Shown here piece by piece: positions 13,324 to 58,482 of a stretch of 64,000 bases of DNA. Origin of the DNA: Polyodon spathula. Lineage: Eukaryota > Chordata > Actinopteri > Acipenseriformes > Polyodontidae. The stretch lies in assembly GCF_017654505.1 (NCBI RefSeq), contig NC_054537.1, positions 68,043,145 through 68,107,144 of the forward strand. The letters are read 5' to 3'. Made by a program: the position numbers and the translations under genes. Each line of letters opens with the position of its first letter. Within the stretch, counting starts at the first letter, position 1. Below the pieces are notes generated by a model. That model saw only the letters and a program-made list of their open reading frames with translations. It had not been told where the DNA came from and did no database searches.

Positions 13324-14420
13324 CAACACTATTAATATTCTAAAATATAACCACATGCACCCAACAGTGACCAAGTTTCAACTGTCTAGTAAGTGTTTAC
13401 CTTGTCAAGCATAGTAATCCCAGTGTTTAAACAAGTCTTACTAATAAATTGTGTCAATGTTATTCATAAGAAACAACTTCATACAAACTGCTGTTCGGGA
13501 ACAGAAGTACCTTGTAATCCCAATTTTAAGAAACAGGCAACCAGAAATAAAAAGAAATAGCAATTTCCTCTAACCTCCAAAATTCCAGCAAAATTAGACT
13601 GTAGTGGAAGCACTAGATCTGTTCTCAGTTGTGAATTTCAAATCTTCCTGTTAACCAAGTGCTTGAGTTGGCTGAATAGGATTCTAGTCCATGTAGTTGT
13701 CTCAATACAATATAGTGTTCACATCTCATTTTCTAACCAGAGATATGGTATAAAAATTCCATCAAAACATTAAAAACAATCATTTTTGATTGGGTATTAC
13801 TCGTTACATATGCTGTTCATGCTGCTTGTAATATAACATGACATGACTTGCTAAGAGAACATCACATTTCTTTAACAAATGATAAGAGAAATACATCTAC
13901 CCCAAAGAGGAGGGTTGAGGAAAGGTAGAGAGTCAGTCAGAGCTGCACAATATAAATCCCACATACCACCATTTCAATTGTAAACAGGTGGCTGGATTAA
14001 AGCCTTCATGTGGTTTAAAACTTTTTCCATTGCTCTGTGCCATCAAATTTTTCAGGTTAGCTCTTATCTCACTTGAAGTAATAACTGAAAACTCACAGGT
14101 TATAAAGTAGGATACCACTTAAATCAAAAAGAGTGAAACACAAAGTAAGCCTTCAGAGGTCACTGTAAGGAATACAAGTACCATAATTTTCCTTCCGCAA
14201 CCCCTGCAGTTCACCAAAGAGATGAACTACGCGCACATAAGTTAATAAAACAGCATTTTTGTGCAAAATAGTGTGCCAAGTAACTTCAGACAGTTCTGAA
14301 ACATCTGTTTGAGGATTACATATCTCTTCCTAATGTGCAAAAATGTGCTACCAGCCAGCTAATACATGTGCAAAACTTATTTTCGGGGATTTTTATTATT
14401 AGCTACAATTTTCTTTAAAA
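13324..14420. other. No gene seen
   Basis: AT-rich spacer between the hAT and Tc1 elements. Only short random frames are present. Confidence 0.5.
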
Positions 14421-14422
14421 TA

Positions 14423-16022
14423 CAGTGCCTACAGAAAGTCTACACCCCCTTTCTACATTTTTACCTTTTGCTGCCTTATAGCCTGGTATTAAAATGCATT
14501 AAAATCTTTTTTTTTTTCCATTTATCTACGCATCCTAGCCCACAACTTCGAAGTGAAAAAAAATATTCTAGAACTTTGTAGAAAATGAATTAAAAATAAA
14601 AACTGAAATAGCTTGGTTGGATAAGTGTCCACCCCCTTGTAATAGCAATCCTAAATTAGCTCAGGTGTAACCAATCACCTTCAAAATCACACATCAAGTT
14701 AAGTGGCCTCCACCTGTGTTAAATTGTAGTGATTCACATGATTCAGGATAAATTCAGCAGCTCCTGTATGTTCCCTCTGCTGGTTAGTGCATTTCAAAGC
14801 AAAGATTCAACCATGAGCACCAAGGAGCTTTCAAAAGTACTTCGAGACAAAGTTGTTGAAAGGCACAGATCAGCGGATGGGTATAAAAAAAAAAAAAAAT
14901 CAAAGGCCTTGAATATCCCTTGGACCACAGTCAAGGCAATTATTAAGAAGTGGAAGGTGTATGGCACCACCAAGACCCTGCTTAGATCAGGCCTTCCCTC
15001 CAAACTGGATGACCGAGCAAGAAGAAGACTAATCAAAGAGGCTACCAAAAGACCAATGGCAACGTTACAAGAGCTACAGGCTTTTATGGCCAAGACTGGT
15101 TAAAGTGTACATGTGACAACAATATCCCAAGCACTCCACAAATCTGGCCTGTATGTTAGTGTGGCAAGAAGGAAGCCATTACTCAAGAAAGCCCATCTTG
15201 AATCCCATTTGAAATATGCAACAAAACACTCAGGAGACTCTGTAGCCGTGTGGCAAAAAGTTTTGTGGTCTGACAAAACTAAAATTGAACTTTTTGGCCT
15301 AAATGCAAAGCCTTATGTTTGGCGCAAACCCAACACAGTGCATCACCCAAAGAACACCATCCCTACTGTGAAGCATGGTGGTGGCAGCATCATGTTATGG
15401 GGACGTTTGTCATCGGCAAGGACTGGGGCACTTGTCAGAATAGAAGGGAAAATGAATGGAGCAAAGTACAGAGAAATCCTTGAGGAAAACCCGCTGCCTA
15501 CTGCAAAAAAGCTGAAACTAGGATGGAAGTTCACCTTTCAGCATGACAACGACCCAAAGCACACAGCTAAAGCTACACTGGAGTGGCTTAGGAACAAAAA
15601 GGTAAATGTCCTTGAGTGGCCCTGTCAGAGTCCCGACCTAAATCCAATCGGAAATGTGTGGCCTGACTTGAAGATTGCTGCCCATTAACGCTCCCCAAGG
15701 AACTTGACAGAGCTTGAACAGTTTTCTAAAGACGAATGGTCAAATATTGCCAAATCTAGGTGAGCAAAGTTGGTAGAGACCTATCCCAACAGACTCACAG
15801 CTGTAATTGCTGCCAAGGGTGCTTCCACCAAATATTAACTCAGGGGGGTGGAGACTTATCCAATTATGATATTTCAGTTTTGTATTTTTAACATATAATT
15901 TTTATCTCAATAAAAACTTTTTTTCCCTTAACAGTGTGGAGTATGGTGTGTAGATAAGTGGGAAAAATCCTTATTTAAATATAAAAAAAGTTCAAGGGGG
16001 TGTAGACTTTCTATAAACACTG
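14423..16022 (+). mobile_element. Tc1/mariner element, full length, inactive
   Basis: The ends CAGTGCCTACAGAAAGTCTA (14423) and its imperfect reverse complement (to 16022) are flanked by TA on both sides (14421-14422, 16023-16024), the Tc1 target duplication. An inner inverted pair (GGATAAGTGTCCACCCCC near 14620 versus GGGGGTGGAGACTTATCC near 15846) gives the IR/DR organisation of fish Tc1 elements, with terminal repeats of about 215 bp. The 1,600-bp length is typical. The transposase gene inside is broken. Confidence 0.9.
14813..15838 (+). pseudogene. Tc1 transposase pseudogene
   Basis: The frame opens at ATG 14813 (MSTKELSKVLRDKVVERH) and stays in one phase to TAA 15836-15838. The N-terminal paired-type helix-turn-helix (LNIPWTTVKAIIKKWK) and the LPSKLDDRARRRL linker are followed by the catalytic domain. 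There the first two acidic residues are visible in [11 protein letters not shown] and [18 protein letters not shown]. In-phase stops occur at 15101-15103, 15686-15688 and 15761-15763. The third catalytic position is Gly (DLNPIGNVW) where the family has Glu, so the enzyme would be dead even without the stops. An A-rich run near 14887 encodes a Lys tract. The length of about 341 codons fits the family. Confidence 0.9.
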
Positions 16023-16024
16023 TA

Positions 16025-16440
16025 TAACGTCCCCATATCCAGGGGTTCCAATGTCGCTGCCAGCGCCACCATGGCCGGAGTTCCCCTGCGCCGCTGCCAG
16101 CGCCACCACAGCTAGAGTTGAGGAGACCACCTCCACCACAGCCCCGACCACCACTCTTGTACAACAGTCCGGCACGTGTGAGTCGGTTCCCTTGACCTGG
16201 TCTCCCAGATATCTGGCCTTTGTGGACCTCTGGCCTCTAAGCCAGACTCTCAGGTAGCTGCACCACCAGGCACAGTCGGTCACCTGGTGCCCTGTTCCAC
16301 TCCCCTGAGTGGGCCTGATGTTGCTGCACAGTCGCTGGGGCTCACACCTCTGCCTGCAGCTGCAATCGCCTGGTCGCCAACTTGCGCTCCTGACGCTCCA
16401 TCTACATCGTCGGTTCTTGGTCCCATGACTTGTGGAAATG
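16025..16440 (+). repeat. GC-rich debris, probably LTR-element interior
   Basis: GC-rich, CCACCACC-type sequence sits directly against the Tc1 right end and contrasts with the AT-rich surroundings. It resembles the Pro/Thr-rich interiors of the LTR elements at 20 and 31 kb, but no long frame survives. Confidence 0.35.
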
Positions 16441-23700: not shown

Positions 23701-23724
23701 GGGTTTTTTTTTTGTTTTTTTTCA

Positions 23725-24002
23725 GTATAATCATAAATCTCGAAAAAACTACTCACTTCTAAATCTTTTGTAGTCATTTTTGTATTACTTTAGTATAAAT
23801 ACATGTTAATTTGGATTCATATGTTGTTTTTATCTGCCCGTTTTTCCATTGGAAATAGTGATATTTTGAAATATCACTGTCCTGGTCACAAAAGCAAAGT
23901 TTGTGGGGAATAATAGCCATTTTTTATGCTTTTGAGGCATAAGCAATTAGGAAATAACACTTACTACCCAGGAACAAAAAAAAAAAAAAATGTTACACGG
24001 TG
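23725..24002 (+). mobile_element. 5'-truncated MITE of the 49.8-kb transposon family
   Basis: Matches 57426-57725 from CAGTATAATC to the terminal TGTTACACGGTG. It includes a subterminal palindrome AGTGATATT/AATATCACT and the block GGTCACAAAAGCAAAGTTTG. The left inverted repeat is missing; the copy starts at the same CAG where the 57-kb MITE joins its two halves. Confidence 0.8.
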
Positions 24003-25040
24003 TTATTAATTTTTAAATAGCCTGTTAACAAAGGGTTAGATTCATGAGGTTGAATGATACATATCTATGTTATCACTACAGTGGTGTGAAAGAATGTACA
24101 TTCACATGCTAATTTGCTTTCTGCCTGTTTGCTTCCCATAAAGCTACAGAGATTTAATATGTAACACCCTAACCTTTTGTTAAGTGCTAAGACATTCCTT
24201 TGTAAATGTTTTGTACAACATTATGGGATAGATGTACTAAAGTGTTAGGTTATGCCTGTCACAATAGTCGCAAACCAGTTGCAAACGAGTCGGAAGTCTT
24301 GGGTGAAATGTATTAAACAACTATGTGCGACTTTTTAGGGAATGCTTTGAGTCAGCACTTTCTGTTTGCGGTTCAAGCGTAGATGAATATGTAATTATGG
24401 GCGTTCCTGCAAGAATTTGCAAAATGGGAACAGAGATAGTGCAAATGAGGGTTCTCAAATATTCTAATGAGATGTACGAAAGCTGCAGGCAATTGCGACT
24501 CTTACAATTGCATCAATTTCTTAATAACTTTTAAAAGCATGTTTTAAACAGTCATAATTGTTGCTGGCATTTCACAGTCTGCTTTTTGTCATGCATTGCC
24601 AGTTATGCTCAATGCATTTTCGAGGCGAATATTTTTCAGGCAATAGATGAAATGCAGATCGCCACAAAGTTAAAAAGGCCGAAAAAGACAAGACAGGGCT
24701 AAAAGAGGAGATCAACAAAATTGTATTCAAAGGATGACCACCAGGAGCTAGACTTGGCTGTAATTAACATATATAATTATGAACTTAACCAAGTTCAATT
24801 ATCTCGTTCCTACTAATGCTGTCAATGCATTTAGGTTAAAAGTAAATTGTTACACATTTTTTAGACAATTGCATTTGAAATATTATTTTAGAACGAAGAA
24901 ACACATTGTAACAACGTAATTCTCTGGGTAAATTTAAGAAAAAAAAATCTACCTTCTTTCCAGTGGGTGTACAAAACCCAACATTAAGCACATTTAGTAA
25001 ATTAGTTGAAAATGATCTAACAATAAAGTTAAAAAAAAAA
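24003..25040. other. No supported gene; possible Harbinger-like debris
   Basis: 24225-24545 begins GGGATAGATGTACTAAAG, a style seen at ends of some fish DNA elements. A Lys-rich stretch (ATKLKRPKKTRQG) at about 24660 is reminiscent of Myb-like Harbinger proteins, but is far too short to call. Confidence 0.25.
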
Positions 25041-25049
25041 AAAACACTC

Positions 25050-25640
25050 AGTACCTAAATATCACAATGTAAGTCAATTTGAGTGGAACACTATTAAGGA
25101 ATTAAAGGAAAACAATAATATCATAATCAAATCTATTAGATAAGGGAGGTGCTATATTTATCCAGAATGCTGAAGATTATGTTTCTGAAGCGCTAAGACA
25201 ATTAAGTAACACAGGTTTTTATGAACCCTTGAAGGGAGATCCAATAGTGCGACTCAAACAAGAAAGAGAAGTAATTCTTGTTAAAGCACTGGAAAGCAAT
25301 TTGATCACGCAAAATCTTTTTTTTTTTTTTTTTTTTTTTAAAGCTGACTTTCCTATAACACCAGTATTTTACAAGTTACCTAAAACACATAAAAAACCTT
25401 TAAGCCCTCCAGGAAGATCAATAGTATCGGGCAATGGTTCCATTTTGGAACTGCTAAGTCAATTTATAGATTATTTTTTCAAAGAAATTGCAAAAGATTT
25501 ACCTTTATATTTAGCTGATACTCAAGATGTGATCAAATTGCTTTCTTAGTATTCTCCTGAACAGTTGCATATTTCAAGTTAGCTAGCTTGATGATTGTGC
25601 AGCATCCTTGACATGGTCTTCTACTATATACCAGGGTAAT
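25050..25640 (+). pseudogene. Penelope-like element reverse transcriptase fragment
   Basis: Frames from 25050 onward give NNNIIIKSI, then (shifted) DKGGAIFIQNAEDYVSEALR and, after a T22 insertion at 25318-25339, PVFYKLPKTHKKPLSPPGRS followed by IVSGNGSILELLSQFIDYFF. DKGG, FYxLPKxHK and GRxIVSGNGS are N-terminal reverse-transcriptase blocks of Penelope-like elements. The frame ends at 25549 before the catalytic YxDD region, with only a weak trace afterwards. Frameshift near 25140, T-run insertion and truncation mean a dead fragment. No GIY-YIG endonuclease was seen. Confidence 0.7.
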
Positions 25641-39095: not shown

Positions 39096-39960
39096 GGCAA
39101 GTAAGGATCTACCACATTCAAGCGGTAGAACCTGGAGAATGTATGCAACATAACCTAGCTAGCCGCCATACAACCCTCTAGTAGATTGCGCAGCTACTCT
39201 CCTAGGTGGGGGTAAGCCAGCACTATCATACTCCACAAATAATGTGTCACCAATCCAAGGCGACAGTCGCTGTTTTGAGAGGGGCTGTCCTAGGGTCTGT
39301 ATACTGTTACAGACAAACAGCTGGTCAGTATGATGCAGAGCTATCCACATAAGAAATTTAATCTCCTATCCTTCGAAGCAAAGAGGTGGATGGAAAGACT
39401 CCAATTCCACAGACTTTCATGTGGAAGGCTGTAATCCCCTTGGGGAGGAACCCATGGTTTGTATGCAGTTACACCCTGCTGCCATCGTCCCAAATACGCA
39501 TACAGGAGCTGTGCATCGACAGTGCCTGCAACTCACTGACCCGCTTAGCGGAGGTGGTAGCCAGGAGGAAGGCTTTCTTCATTGACAGAAGCTTCAACTC
39601 TATGGAGTGTATAGGTTCAAACAGGGTCTTCATGAGAGCCTCCAGTACAACATCAAGGCTCCACTTGGGGAGAGTGGTCCTCCTTGGACAGCTTACCTGC
39701 TGAATGCCCTTGAGAAACCGGGTCACCAAAAATTGTGCATCCAGAGATACCGAATCTATGGAGGCATGGGACACAGAGATTTCAGCTAAATGCACCTTCA
39801 GTGTGGAAGGTGACCTACCAGCATCAAGCAGTTCTTTCAGAAACTTAAAGATAAACTGCATGGGGCAAGAAACTGGGTCATAACTTCTTGTCAGACACCA
39901 ATTCTGGAAATACTTCCACTTACAAGCATACAGCGACCTAGTGGAGTCTGCCATAGCACT
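39096..39960 (-). pseudogene. DIRS tyrosine recombinase pseudogene
   Basis: The minus-strand frame 39954-39469 has MADSTRSLYACKWKYFQNWC and onward: the SAM-like core-binding domain of a DIRS-type tyrosine recombinase. Its end, SAKRVSELQAL, contains the first catalytic Arg. The frame then stops, and the remainder is in shifted frames. 39350-39159 has LSKQRLSPWIGDTL ... VAAQSTRGLYGG, where the catalytic HxxR box reads QSTR (His replaced by Gln). 39151-39100 has TFSRFYRLNVVDPYL with the nucleophile Tyr. All four catalytic positions are thus traceable, one altered, with frameshifts and stops. This enzyme normally integrates the circular DNA copy. Confidence 0.75.
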
Positions 39961-40009
39961 CTGCCGAGTTCCTACAACCGTGTCTGATAGCCCTTAGTCT
40001 GTCCAGCTA

Positions 40010-41109: not shown

Positions 41110-42778
41110 AACGTTTTCATAAGTCGAACCTTGCGTTAAGAGAGTCTCTTCATGTTTACGGATGTACAGAATTAAAGTAATAGACAAATTTCATCTGTTT
41201 AAGAAAATTTGTGATTTTTAAAGTCTAAAACTCAGAATCAATCTATGGTAAGGTATTATTCCACTAATAAGGTGTAATAAGGTGTAAGGTGACATTGGTT
41301 TTATGTTGGGAAATATTTTTAAGAAAAATAAAAAACTGAAATATCTTGCTTGCATAAGTATTCAACCCCTGTGCTGTGGAAGCTCCCAGTTTGCACCGAT
41401 GAAAGAAATTGCCCTAACAAGGACACAATTACCTTACCATTGGCCTCCACCTGTGAACCATTAAAGTTGCTGTCACATTTTCTGGATAAAAACCCCACTG
41501 TTGAAGGATCATTGGTAAGGCTGTGAATCTGAAGGAAAATGAAGACCAAAGAGCATTCTACAGAAGTTAGAGATAAAGTAATACAAATGCATAGATTAGG
41601 GAAAGGGTACAAAATAATATCCAAGTGTTTGGATATCCCAGTGAGCACAGTTGGATCAATAATCAGGAAGTGGAAGCTGCATCACACCACCCAGGCACTG
41701 CCAAGAAAAGGCCGTCCCTCAAAACTCAGCGCTCAAACAAGAAGGAGACTTGTGAGAGAAGCCACAGAGAGGCCAACAATCACTTTGAAGGAGCTACAGA
41801 GTTCAGTGGCTGGGAGTGGAGTAATGGTGCACCAGTCAACCATATCAAGAGCTCTGCATAACAATGGCTTGTATGGAAGGGTGGCAAGAAAGAAGCCGTT
41901 ACTCAAAAAGTACCATCTGAAAGCACGTCTGGAGCTTGCCAGGAAAGCATGAGAGTGACCCAGCTGCGATGTGGGAAAAGGTTTTGTGGTCAGATGAGAC
42001 CAAGATAGAGCTTTTTGGCCAAAATTCAAAGCACTATGTTTGGAGCAAACCTAACACTGCCCATGCCTCAAGACACACCATCCCTACAGTGAAGTATGGT
42101 GGTGGCAGCATCATGCTGTGGGGATGCTTCTCATCAGCAGGGGCTGGGCATCTTGTTACAATTGAAGGACAAATGGATGGAGCAAAATACAGGAAAATAC
42201 TGCAAGAGAATCTGTTGCAGTCTGCTAAAAAACTGAAGCTTGGGAGGAAATTTACCTTTCAGCAGGACAATGATCCCAAGCACAAGGTCAAAGCAACATT
42301 GGAGTGGCTCAAAAACAAAAACGTGAATGTCCTACAGTGGCCCAGTCAAAGTCCTGATCTCAATCCCATTGAGAATCTGTGGCACTATTTGAAAATTGCA
42401 GTCCACAAACGTTGCCCAACCAACCTGAACAACCTGGAGCAAATCTGCCAAGAAGAATGGTCCAAAATCACTCCGACACTGTGTGCAAAGCTGGTTCATC
42501 ATTATCCCAAAAGACTTAAAGCTGTTATTGCAGCGAAAGGTGGCTCTACCAAATATTAATATGTGGGAGTTGAATATTTATGCAAGCAAGCTATTTCAGT
42601 TTTGTATTTTTCTTAAAAATATTTCCCAACATAAAACCAATGTCATCGTCCAATAATTGATTTTGAGTTTAAGTGTTTTAAAACAAAATATCGAACAGAA
42701 CGAAATGTCAATGTACCATTTGTAATTCAGTAATATGAGAGAATTGGTCAGGGGTCTGAATACTTTTGCAAGCCACTG
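41110..42778 (+). mobile_element. Tc1/mariner element inserted in DIRS
   Basis: The right end is clear: reverse complement CAGTGGCTTGCAAAAGTATT ending at 42778 with TA following. Inner inverted repeats match well (GACATTGGTTTTATGTTGGG at about 41291, inverted at about 42625). The outer left repeat is diverged and carries an inserted AAGGTGTAATAAGGTG patch near 41265, so the left limit is uncertain by tens of bases. DIRS sequence resumes at about 42785. Confidence 0.8.
41539..42559 (+). pseudogene. Tc1 transposase with a single frameshift
   Basis: The ATG at 41539 (MKTKEHSTEVRDKVIQMHRL) opens the DNA-binding half: helix-turn-helix LDIPVSTVGSIIRKWK, then the GRPSKLSAQTRRRL hook and a second HTH (VMVHQSTISRALHNNGLYGR). 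Near 41945-41949 one extra base shifts the phase; the first frame stops at 41952. The second frame continues to TAA 42557-42559 with all three catalytic acidic residues present: D in WSDETKIELFG, D in QQDNDPKHK, E in PDLNPIENLW. The C-terminus GGSTKY is intact. It is far less damaged than the copy at 14.8 kb and is a different subfamily. Confidence 0.9.
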
Positions 42779-42784
42779 TATATT

Positions 42785-43321
42785 AAAACTGCCAGGTCAG
42801 TCACTCGGCAGTGGGGGTAAGGCAGAGCCTAGCCCCGGTGGAGGACGTGCTTCCATGTGCGTGAAAAGCTGTAAAAGACAACAACATTCACTCCTTTAAA
42901 TCAATACTGCACAGGAACTCGATTCATGTACCACAAACAGGACAGAAGCAGCCTGCAACGCAATCGCATGCAGGTTGCTGAGTAAAAAAAAAGAAAAAGG
43001 TTAAATCAGGAGTCACTGATTCCGTGAAAGCAGCCAGCCAGCTTTCAGCCTGAAAGGCAAGGGAACTACAGCAAACTCAAGGTCCTTTTTCCCAATACAT
43101 TCAGATACCAACACAGGGTCTTACCTTACCATCTTGTGAGGCAAAAAGAAAAATGGCTTCCTCAGTATAATGGTTTTAATCCCTCAGTAGGCAGGACTGA
43201 GGGCATCATCCCAGGACAGTATCATCTCTCTAGTATAGAGAACTAGGAAAACACCTACCAATAGGGGAGACATATCCCATACCTAATGTTGGTTGGTGGT
43301 CATCTTCGAATTGAAAGGGAA
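42785..43321 (-). repeat. DIRS left terminal repeat
   Basis: The reverse complement of 43130-43320 matches 36985-37165. The inner part shares AGCCCCGGTGGAGGA-like sequence with the short DIRS element at 7450. Confidence 0.75.
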
Positions 43322-48693: not shown

Positions 48694-49839
48694 CATGTGA
48701 TTATGTGTAATATCATCATTGTGTAAAACCAAATGAAAATTATTTTAAAAAAGACATTATACGGTTGTGTATTTATAATACAAGACATTTATTTACAAAA
48801 TAAAAAAAAAAAATGGTAGTTGGTAGTGTCTTTTGTAATTACATGGTATTGACAAATGTGGTTGTGTATTTACAATGTAATTACTATGTAATCACATCTG
48901 CAATTACAGTGCACTTACAATGTAGTTAAAGGCGCCTAAAATGTAGTACTGTATTGTATTGTGGGTTCATTTGGGTGCTGTTCTTTGTTTTCATGTACCA
49001 TTAGCTGTTTGTTTTGCTTTTTGCTTTAGAGAAAAGCTGGCCTAGAGGGCTCTCAATGAATGACTAAACTCCTTAATGAGAAGCAAGCTCATGCTGCTAT
49101 ACCGTTAATACAGGGTACACCTAAAAAATTCCCAATCCCACTCCAAGACCTCTTAAGCACCAGTTGATTCATACCTTAAGATGATATATGGTGACCACTG
49201 CCGTTTTGTAGGAGTGCACAAAAAAAACCAATATTGATAGTCTTGATATTTTCACAGCTGACTGCTCCTTTCCTCTTTTCCTGAGCTTTTTTTATTTTCC
49301 GGCAACACTCACTCAGATTCCATTCCTGACACATCAGAACAGCAACATTCATCTTAAGATGACATCTGTGAAGAATTTTTCAATAACCTAATGGTTATAA
49401 AGCATGTGAAGAGGGGGGATAATAGAGGGATTATGACATAAAAATGCTAAAGCCCTTGTGGGGGAACCACTGCACATATAGTTTTGATTTGGTAATTCAA
49501 ACTAATGTGGTTTGTAGTCCTCTGGAGACAGGGCAATAATCCTGTGTAATATACATTCAAACCCTGATGCATAACACATTGCACTAGGGCCAAAGGTACC
49601 AAATAATATAATTATCCTACAGTACAAACTAGAAATTGTCGCAGCAGCAAGTAGAGTGCAAGTTGTCTTTACTAATTTATTAAATCCAGACTCTTACAGT
49701 ACCTTTAAGCTTTACAGTGTTAGAACAGATATCAGAAGCCTAGTTATATTAACAAACTAGCGTGCCCAAGTCTAACATTGAAAAACCACTGTGCTTATCT
49801 GCCAGTATCAACTTGGTTTTCTTTTCTAAATTATTATTA
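48694..49839. other. No gene seen; short TAATTAC repeat patch
   Basis: 48830-48935 repeats a loose ACAATGTAATTAC unit. The remainder is AT-rich spacer. Confidence 0.45.
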
Positions 49840-50120
49840 CACTATGTAACACAATTTTTGTTCCTGGGTAGTAAGTGTTATTTCCTAATTGCTTATGCCT
49901 CAAAAGTATAGAAAATGGCTATTATTCCCAACAAACTTTGCTTTTGTGACCAGGACAGTGATATTTTGAAATTTACCTATTTCCAATGAGAAAATGGGTG
50001 AATTTGTGTCTTTTCGTTCACATAAAGTCAGAAAAAAACAACATATGAATCCAAACTAACATGTATTTATACTAAAGTAATACAAAGATGACTACAAAAG
50101 ATTTAGAAGTGAGTAGTTTT

Positions 50121-51738
50121 TCAAGATTTACGATTATATTGCAAATCACTTTCACGAATCAGCCCCCAAATGTAGTCTCCCATTATATTCCCGTTATACT
50201 GTCCTTGGTAGCAGCGCTCAAAGTCCAGTATATCCTGGTGGAAGAGCTCACCTTGCTCCTCCGAGTACGCTCCCATGTTCTCCTTGAATTTATCAAGATA
50301 ATCATCAAGGATATGGACTTTGAGGGACATCCTACAGCCCATTGTGCCGTAGTTCTTCACCAGAGTCTCAACCAGCTCCACATAGTTTTCAGCCTTGTGA
50401 TTGCCCAGGAAGCCCCGAACCACTGCGACAAAGCTGTTCCAAGCCGCTTTCTCCTTACCAGTGAGCTTCTTGGGGAATTCATTGCACTCCAGGATCTTCT
50501 TTATCTGTGGTCCGACGAAGACACCGGCTTTGACCTTTGCCTCAGACAGCTTAGGGAAGAAGTCTTGAAGGTACTTGAAGGCTGCCAACTCCTTATCTAG
50601 AGCTCTGACAAATTGTTTCATAAGGCCCAATTTGATGTGCAGTGGTGGCATCAGCACTTCCGGGGGTCCACCAGTGGCTCCCACTTGACGTTGTTCCTCC
50701 CCACAGAGAACTCAGTCCGCTGTGGCCAGTCCCGCCTGTGGTAGTGCGCCTTGGTGTCCCTGCTGTCCCAAAGGCAAAGATAGCAGGGAAACTTGGTAAA
50801 ACCGCCTTGGAGACCCATCAGGAATGCCACCATTTTGAAGTCTCCTATGACCTCCCAGCCATACTCATCATACTTCAAGGCGTCCAGCAAGGTCTTGATG
50901 CTGTTGTAATCCTCTTTGAGGTCCACCGAGTGAGCCAGGGGAAGAGACGGGTACCTGTTACCATTATGGAGCAGCTCGGCTTTGAGGCTCCTGGATGAGC
51001 TGTCAATGAAGAGGCGCCACTCATTCTGGTTACAGGCGATTCCGATTGCCTCGAACAGACTGGTCACATTGTGGTAGAAGCAGAGCCCATCTTGACGGGT
51101 GAAGAAGCTGGAAAAAGGTTGGTGACGCTTCCTCTGATCTGCGACTTGCACACTTTCATCCAACAAGTTCCATTGCTTGAGCCTAGACGTCAAAAGCTCG
51201 GCATTGGACTTGGTGAGACCAAGATCTCTAATCAAGTCGTTGAGGTCTTTTTGGTTGGGGTTTTATGGGTTTCTCTCCTCAGCTCTACCTCTGAAATTGT
51301 CATCTGGATCTACAACGTCTTCCTCGCTCTCTGACTTGCTGCTCTCTTCTAAAGACGGCTGCTCTCTATATCATCGTATATGATATATTTTTTTCAATAA
51401 CATTGAAAATTGTAAAACATTTTAAAATGTAAAACTTTTACAATTTTAAAAATTTTAACAAATTTTATAACATAAAATTCCGAGCAACAATTGTCCATCT
51501 TACCTTCCAGAGTTTTTTTGCAGTGCTCGCAGGTGAAATGAGGTGCCCAGGGTTTGTTTTGATCCCCGACAGGCATGCCGAAATATGCCTTGTAGACCTC
51601 ACACATCTTAGCAGATGTTTCCACGGAGTACTTTTTTGCTCTTGTCTTGATAAATTGGCCGCAGACATAGCAAAATGCGTCTGCCGGATGCTTGCAGCCT
51701 CTTGATGCTATATCAGAAAAATGCAGATATGTATCCAC
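50121..51738 (-). pseudogene. Transposase-like gene, uncharacterised fish/arthropod family
   Basis: Three minus-strand blocks. (1) 51738-51503: DTYLHFSDIASRG and CYVCGQF ... CEHCKKTLEG, two CxxC pairs suggesting a zinc-binding domain; it opens with GTG and has an in-phase stop just upstream, so the ATG is apparently lost. (2) About 51360-50655: acidic ESEEDVVDPDDNF, stop at 51263-51265, then EWRLFIDSSSRSLKAELLHN, WEVIGDFKMVAFLMG and CYLCLWDSRDTKAHYH. (3) 50684-50121: PPLHIKLGLMKQFVRALD ... EQGELFHQDI ... QYNRKS. Blocks 2 and 3 are joined by a 1-base deletion near 50660. FID, IGD and EQGE could be DDE residues around a CxxC/H insertion (inference). GGTAAG at 51503 is a plausible splice donor. 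Confidence 0.65.
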
Positions 51739-51783
51739 TTAGGCAGCTGGAATTAAACTGAACTGGTGGGCTTAAGGCCCCTG

Positions 51784-51791
51784 TATTTATA
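51784..51791 (-). promoter_or_regulatory. TATA box of the transposase gene
   Basis: The minus strand reads AGTATAAATACAGGGG. It lies 46 bp upstream of the first codon position (51738), leaving room for a start site near 51755-51760, and 23 bp downstream of the proximal heat-shock element. Confidence 0.6.
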
Positions 51792-51814
51792 CTACTATTT
51801 ATATTACTGGGAAG

Positions 51815-51832
51815 TTCTAGAAAGTTCTAGAA
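51815..51832 (-). promoter_or_regulatory. Proximal heat-shock element (four perfect units)
   Basis: TTCTAGAAAGTTCTAGAA is an exact TTCnnGAAnnTTCnnGAA array, the binding site of trimeric HSF. A further GAA lies at 51811-51813, one base out of register. The motif is palindromic, so strand is nominal. Confidence 0.75.
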
Positions 51833-51867
51833 GTTACTCCAAGTTTACTCAGCACTGAATCTATCTG

Positions 51868-51880
51868 GAATGTTCTGGAA
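51868..51880 (-). promoter_or_regulatory. Distal heat-shock element (three perfect units)
   Basis: GAATGTTCTGGAA is an exact GAAnnTTCnnGAA, 36 bp further upstream of the proximal element and just inside the terminal inverted repeat. Confidence 0.7.
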
Positions 51881-52033
51881 AATAGGTAAATTTCAAAATA
51901 TCACTGTCCTGGTCACAAAAGCAAAGTTTGTGGGGAATAATAGCCATTTTCTATACTTTTGAGGCATAAGCAATTAGGAAGTAACACTTACTACCCAGGA
52001 ACAAAAAAAAAATAAAACATTTGTTACCCGGTG

Positions 52034-52035
<2 letters not shown>

Positions 52036-52110
<75 letters not shown>
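52036..52110. repeat. (ATT)n microsatellite
   Basis: About 25 units directly at the right end of the transposon. Confidence 0.95.
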
Positions 52111-57247: not shown

Positions 57248-57725
57248 CACCGTGTAACAATTTTTTTTTTTTTTTTTTGTTCCTGGGTAGTAAGTGTTAT
57301 TTCCTAATTGCTTATGCCTCAAAAGTATAGAAAATGGCTATTATTCCCCACAAACCTTGCTTTTGTGACCAGGACAGTGATATTTCAAAATATCACTATT
57401 TCCAATGGGAAAACGGGCAAGTGCAGTATAATCGTAAATCTTGAAAAACTACTCACTTCTAACTCTTTTGTAGTCATTTTTGTATTACTTTAGTATAAAT
57501 ACATGTTAATTTGGATTCATATGTTGTTTTTTTCTGACTTTACGTGAACGAAAAGACACACATTTGCCTGATTTCCCATTGGAAATAGTGATATTTTGAA
57601 ATATCACTGCCTTGGTCACAAAAGCAAAGTTTGTGGGGAATAATAGCCATTTTCTATACTTTTGAGGCATAAGCAATTAGGAAATAACACTTACTACCCA
57701 GGAACAAAAATTGTGTTACATAGTG
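57248..57725. mobile_element. MITE derived from the 49.8-kb transposon
   Basis: Ends CACCGTGTAACA and TGTTACATAGTG with ~165-bp inverted arms. 57426-57725 is the reverse complement of the left ~300 bp of the coding element, including codons for the last residues QYNRKS and the stop. 57248-57420 is its other terminal repeat. The coding interior and heat-shock promoter are gone. Length 478 bp; no clear target duplication. Confidence 0.85.
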
Positions 57726-58482
57726 TTAATCAGAGATACATTTGACAGTATTCTAGTACTGTGCAAGATAATTATTACCTGAGTTCTGTGTGTGACACAA
57801 CTCAAACAATTAAATAAGTCTAAACTTCTAATATGATTTTGACACCTGCACCAATCAGCCTGTGGACTCTTTCTTCTGTATTTCCAGCTGCGTTCATATC
57901 AATGCTAATTTGTCATGAACCATGTCATTACTGTGGCAATTAAGATAATTAGAGAGAATCAAGAAAAAAACATGGGAATAAAGCTTCCTGTCACACTTTT
58001 AGATACAAATAGTGTGAAATATTTGATCTGATATAATTTAATTAGTTTTCTATTCTTATTATAACGCTAGGTTTGTATAGGATAAAGTGAGTACTGGTGT
58101 TGTGTCTTTTTTACTTTTAAGTTGTTTTTTATTGTTATTTTGCATCCAAAAGTAAAATAATTCCAAGTATTATTATTGCACAAATATGAGTAAATGTTAG
58201 GCTAACTGCATAATAAAAACTGACAAAAGACAACACATCAGTCCTGGCTGTGAACGAATAGAAAGGTTCAGTCGTTGCAGCACTCTTCAGTCCTTCATTA
58301 CTCTTCAGGTCCTTTTTCATCACATTCTTATATTACATTCTGTAGGCCCTCTGCTCTCCAATCAACAACTTCTGAGATGTTAAATAAAACACACTTTGAT
58401 TCAATTTTCCATTTAATTCAATAACAATTATAAAATTTTTCCAATTCATAACATGTTTAACCTTCTGACAATTTTTATATAT

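Follow-up and report, generated by a model that had tools for sequence, protein, structure and literature searches.

Two perfect heat-shock elements and two TATA boxes ahead of the transposase gene in a broken Merrow-like Chapaev3 transposon copy

Binding of heat-shock factor (HSF) trimers to heat-shock elements (HSEs), with a TATA-dependent transcription start about 30 bp downstream, is established HSF biology, and the mobile element ONSEN is under HSF control. ONSEN is a copia retrotransposon of Arabidopsis, named in the available passages of PMC6927752. As a mobile element transcribed under heat stress it resembles the element proposed here, while differing from it in being a plant LTR retrotransposon. 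The same passages describe Helitron1_CE of Caenorhabditis elegans, which has HSEs in the promoter region of its transposase and an HSF-1-dependent induction by heat shock, and report that Helitrons scatter HSEs near host genes in Caenorhabditis (PMC6927752). Helitron1_CE is, like the element described here, a DNA transposon with HSEs before the transposase gene (PMC6927752, available passages). However, it is a nematode rolling-circle Helitron and its case is experimentally proven, whereas the present copy is of the Chapaev3 type and known from sequence alone. CNEST, from Cryptococcus neoformans, is a DNA transposon of the CMC supergroup, nearest to Chapaev and Mirage, which is mobilised more often at 37 C; it differs in being fungal and of a distinct superfamily, and the HSEs that the available portions of that paper name belong to TCN3 and TCN12, two LTR elements, and not to CNEST (PMC12810828). 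Promoter activity, repressed by a YY1-like factor, is also described for the TIRs of ProtoRAG (PMC7481187, excerpts).

The closest described family by sequence features is Merrow, a Chapaev3 transposon with hosts that include lampreys, sturgeon and others (Zhang et al. 2014, PMC4079192). According to the accessible text of that paper, the element is 2,451 bp long, its transposase is encoded in two exons (78 + 484 = 562 aa), membership requires at least 80% nucleotide identity over 300 bp, and the target site duplication of Chapaev3 is a 3-bp TWA (PMC4079192). The same paper places Garfield, an element of insects, nearest to Merrow. We use ‘Merrow-like’ here on the basis of protein relatives, inverted arms and end sequence, not of nucleotide identity to Merrow, whose DNA did not occur in the collections searched. 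The words ‘heat’ and ‘promoter’ are both absent from the accessible text of PMC4079192. Likewise, no Chapaev transposon with an HSE promoter is described in the portions of the open-licence literature at hand, and none is found in the parts available of PMC12810828, PMC7922186 or PMC4298943 (for the last, passages on other terms). This agrees with the original prediction, which knew of no description of such a promoter for this transposon family.

We define as the window the whole 64 kb stretch of DNA that was analysed. It contains a Merrow-like copy of 2,194 bp (against 2,451 bp in PMC4079192, as far as its text is available), which is broken and whose features are collected in Table 1. The copy begins with CACTATGTAACA and ends with TGTTACCCGGTG, that is, with the CAC...GTG ends of Chapaev3 elements (CACTATG from 49840 and CCCGGTG ending at 52033). 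The 128-nt ungapped cores of its two TIRs differ by about 2%. Beyond this core the ends diverge more, with CACTATG versus CACCGGG, a T run and an 11-nt difference in length, and the core may thus understate the age of the copy. Regarding the MITE-like relatives, the flanks of the copy at 57.4 kb are TAA and CTA, and the one at 23.9 kb has a single end. The left-end heptamer CACTATG (49840-49846) is identical to the TR1 heptamer of ProtoRAG and near the RAG RSS heptamer CACAGTG (PMC7481187, excerpts), which fits the RAG1-like fold of the transposase.

Table 1. Positions of the transposon copy, its promoter-end motifs, its transposase gene and its short relatives in the window
Feature	Position	Strand	Basis or remark
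Merrow-like Chapaev3 DNA transposon copy, 2,194 bp	49840..52033	-	sequence, inverted arms, protein relatives
Putative target site duplication, left, TTA	49837..49839	.	sequence; TWA rule from PMC4079192 (available text)
Putative target site duplication, right, TTG, one change	52034..52036	.	adjoins TTA microsatellite, weak
Left TIR ungapped core, 3' side of gene	49855..49982	+	98% complementary to 51880-52007
Right TIR ungapped core, promoter side	51880..52007	-	inverted-arm comparison
HSE2, perfect three-unit heat-shock element GAATGTTCTGGAA	51868..51880	.	9/9 unit bases
HSE1, perfect four-unit heat-shock element TTCTAGAAAGTTCTAGAA	51815..51832	.	12/12 unit bases
Second TATA box TATAAATA, missing from the original prediction	51796..51803	-	11 bp from HSE1
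TATA box TATAAATA, named in the original prediction	51784..51791	-	sequence
Transposase exon 1, codons 1-70 of 562-aa relative P0001	51502..51711	-	tblastn of P0001
Remaining transposase, codons 142-562	50106..51367	-	tblastn of P0001
Short MITE-like relative, both TIRs, without transposase, without HSE	57248..57730	-	best four-unit score 9/12
Second MITE-like relative, one end only, without HSE	23719..24015	-	best four-unit score 8/12

To characterise the gene, we took the best 120 of 1,822 protein relatives of the transposase, aligned 31 of them and compared the 120 with the window by tblastn, using the matches of P0001 to P0006. Three segments of the window copy match P0001 at 93-94%. The gene spans 51711-50106 on the minus strand, and codons 71-141 of P0001 are without counterpart here. 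Codon 1 reads ATA, and further lesions are stops at codons 176 and 557, a frameshift near 50657-50666 and a change of His498 to Tyr in the H(4)H motif; it is very unlikely that the window copy can still produce active transposase. P0001 has 562 aa, and P0002 and P0003 have 484 aa and begin at its residue 79, lengths which fit the two-exon, 562-aa transposase of Merrow (PMC4079192, available text). The splice donor is likely the GT at 51503, after codon 70, versus a first exon of 78 aa in the table of PMC4079192 as far as accessible. Residues D263, D317, E515, C339, L384, H385, H493 and H498 are invariant among the 31 aligned relatives, several of which are partial, and C336 is present in at least 90% of them. 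From their invariance and order we infer that D263, D317 and E515 form the catalytic triad, which the window copy retains, but with H498Y. The 31 relatives present the C(2)C, LH and H(4)H motifs and the DDE triad of Chapaev3, and the C(2)C and H(3-4)H motifs that CMCT transposases have in common with RAG1 point to a RAG1-like fold. These C(2)C, LH and H(4)H motifs, together with the CAC...GTG ends, hosts among fish and lampreys and the MITE derivatives, are shared with Merrow as described in the accessible text (PMC4079192). Among the best 120 of 1,822 relatives is a protein from Lethenteron reissneri (P0079) with 90% identity over 59% of the query. Sequence searches of Pfam and PDB with the transposase gave only matches under the curated cut-offs or with E above 0.1.

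The original prediction had placed a TATA box, a four-unit HSE and a three-unit HSE upstream of this gene, in the manner of a heat-shock promoter. A check of the sequence found the three motifs exactly at the positions given for them, in the order described and between the TIR and the start codon. HSE1 and HSE2 are the only perfect HSEs of three or more units in the 64 kb window. They are separated by a gap of 35 bp, the whole pair fits within 66 bp, and HSE2 ends on the base with which the right TIR core begins (51880), a one-base overlap. The pair is located in the 168 bp that run from the right TIR core to codon 1, which is where the promoter has to be. The two TATA boxes are both in sense orientation, at gaps of 11 and 23 bp from HSE1 and of 84 and 72 bp, respectively, from codon 1 of the transposase. 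Hence the region has phased inverted nGAAn units upstream of a TATA box, the layout of heat-shock promoters. TATA boxes are weak evidence per se, since TATAAATA is found 21 times in this AT-rich window on either strand.

We favour, with moderate confidence, the reading that the window holds a broken copy of a Merrow-like Chapaev3 transposon, and that the transposase of the active source element was likely transcribed under the control of the host HSF. The motif anatomy is best read as a promoter with HSEs, and it is this anatomy that suggests heat induction. In the source element, two HSEs and two TATA boxes would have lain between the terminal repeat and the transposase start. On this reading, HSE1 and HSE2 would be bound by HSF trimers, and the transcription that these drive from a TATA box would begin some 30 bp downstream of the box, shortly before codon 1. 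The trigger could have been heat, another stress that damages proteins, or the activity of HSF in germ cells during development. The heat-shock-type promoter of the original prediction is upheld as regards its motifs, but the transposase gene said to sit behind it is broken in this copy, so the claim concerns the source element.

One could argue that the HSEs are real HSF sites which serve mainly for expression in germ cells or the early embryo without heat, the response to heat being incidental. This overlaps with the reading we favour, as an HSF promoter is common to both and only the trigger differs. Only expression in the germline benefits a transposon, and roles in the vertebrate germline are known for HSF1 and HSF2; however, the motif layout is that of the classical heat-inducible kind, and we regard a mainly heat-independent use as possible, though rather unlikely.

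In order to contextualize the HSE pair, we performed 300 dinucleotide shuffles of the whole window. The shuffled windows contained on average 0.61 three-unit and 0.013 four-unit HSEs, and in none of the 300 did a four-unit HSE occur with a separate three-unit HSE at most 70 bp away, which supports the statement of the original prediction that such a pair is unlikely by chance. Using only the 201-bp stretch 51700-51900, 20,000 shuffles gave a four-unit HSE in 0 cases and a three-unit HSE in 0.145%. These figures overstate the surprise, because the HSE motif was chosen after the sequence had been read. We also estimated how far the window copy has diverged. It has private amino-acid changes at 20 or more of the 491 residues compared. 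This count excludes the missing codons 71-141 and uses P0001 as the sole reference for residues 1-70; since positions at which P0001 to P0003 disagree do not enter it, 20 is a minimum. The private divergence of the copy is roughly 2%. At 1.2-3% divergence, simple arithmetic gives a probability of 0.78-0.53 that the 21 critical HSE bases survive by chance; that the HSEs are intact while the gene is broken therefore gives no indication of selection on this copy. Given the low divergence, the source element very likely bore the same HSEs, and their arising after insertion is implausible. It is in this light that we consider it improbable that the array is a chance product of the window copy or its immediate lineage rather than a feature of the family: one copy has been seen and the motif was chosen once the whole window had been read, but only 0.013 four-unit HSEs are expected per window, the pair is absent from the 300 shuffles, and in so little-diverged a copy the motifs very likely predate insertion.

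The sequence of the promoter end comes from a single copy, and we searched other collections for sister copies and relatives. The HSE1 region, read in its open antisense frame, gave no match among predicted proteins. The equivalent search with HSE2 gave two matches, P0121 and P0122, which, compared by eye, cover the left, non-promoter end, so that 0 of 2 reach the HSE region. By protein, there were no relatives among 3 and 55 pattern matches in viral contigs or among 27 in prokaryote genomes, and the TIR pattern had no match in viral and genome contigs. The search of plasmids gave no relatives, and that of phages by protein gave a single match at E 6, which we took as noise.

Comparison with other sites in the window helps to define the role of the HSEs. 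The best four-unit HSE score is 8/12 at the other end of the element and in both TIRs, and 10/12 inside the transposase gene. The matches of the two MITE-like copies to the 2,194-bp element stop at 50143 and 50145, where their mutual alignment ends too; in other words, the inner breakpoints of the copies at 57.4 kb and 23.9 kb agree within 2 bp. This suggests that the two short copies represent a MITE subfamily that moved without HSEs. As such a subfamily apparently moved, the HSEs would be promoter elements rather than ends needed for transposition. That the TTCTAGAA-type repeats are subterminal transposase sites or an end structure for transposition, with an accidental likeness to HSEs, is therefore decidedly improbable: they directly adjoin the TIR, and there is a precedent in CACTA elements, whose subterminal repeats bind transposase, but they are found at one end only (8/12 at best at the other), they are absent from the two short copies of the apparent MITE subfamily, and an HSE promoter would be expected to show just this 5-bp-phased GAA/TTC alternation together with TATA boxes.

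We also looked at other mobile elements in the window. A Tc1-like element (14415-16035) has an HSE-like site scoring 11/12 at 14566-14583, at its left end. By chance, 0.43 HSE sites scoring at least 11/12 are expected in the window; the best score is 8/12 at the other end of this element and 9/12 at the ends of a second Tc1-like element, and the site was set aside as a second case. The second Tc1-like element (41300-42800) shows, by eye, two overlapping transposase reading frames. Besides, two further reading frames were noted by eye, one on the minus strand at 39469-39993, like the tyrosine recombinase of a DIRS-like element, and one at 25127-25549, like a Penelope-like reverse transcriptase.

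According to these results, the promoter-like arrangement in this broken copy of a horizontally spreading kind of transposon is real and non-random. DNA transposons driven by HSEs are already known, Helitron1_CE being the case described in the available passages of PMC6927752, and what would be new is a Chapaev-type case, if conservation is confirmed. HSF and its binding site are common to nearly all animals, and on this ground one may go further and suggest, as a doubtful extension, that Merrow carries a portable, host-independent HSE/TATA promoter, which would give expression in any new host along with bursts under stress and would help to explain its crossing between lampreys, sturgeons, teleosts and dragonflies. 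Should the HSEs prove to be a trait of the family, an animal DNA transposon that spreads horizontally would be wired to the stress response, and the old idea that stress mobilises transposons would become directly testable in vertebrates. A promoter readable by every animal would then be a reason for the success of such families across phyla, and Merrow insertions could scatter HSEs near host genes, as the available passages of PMC6927752 describe for Helitrons.
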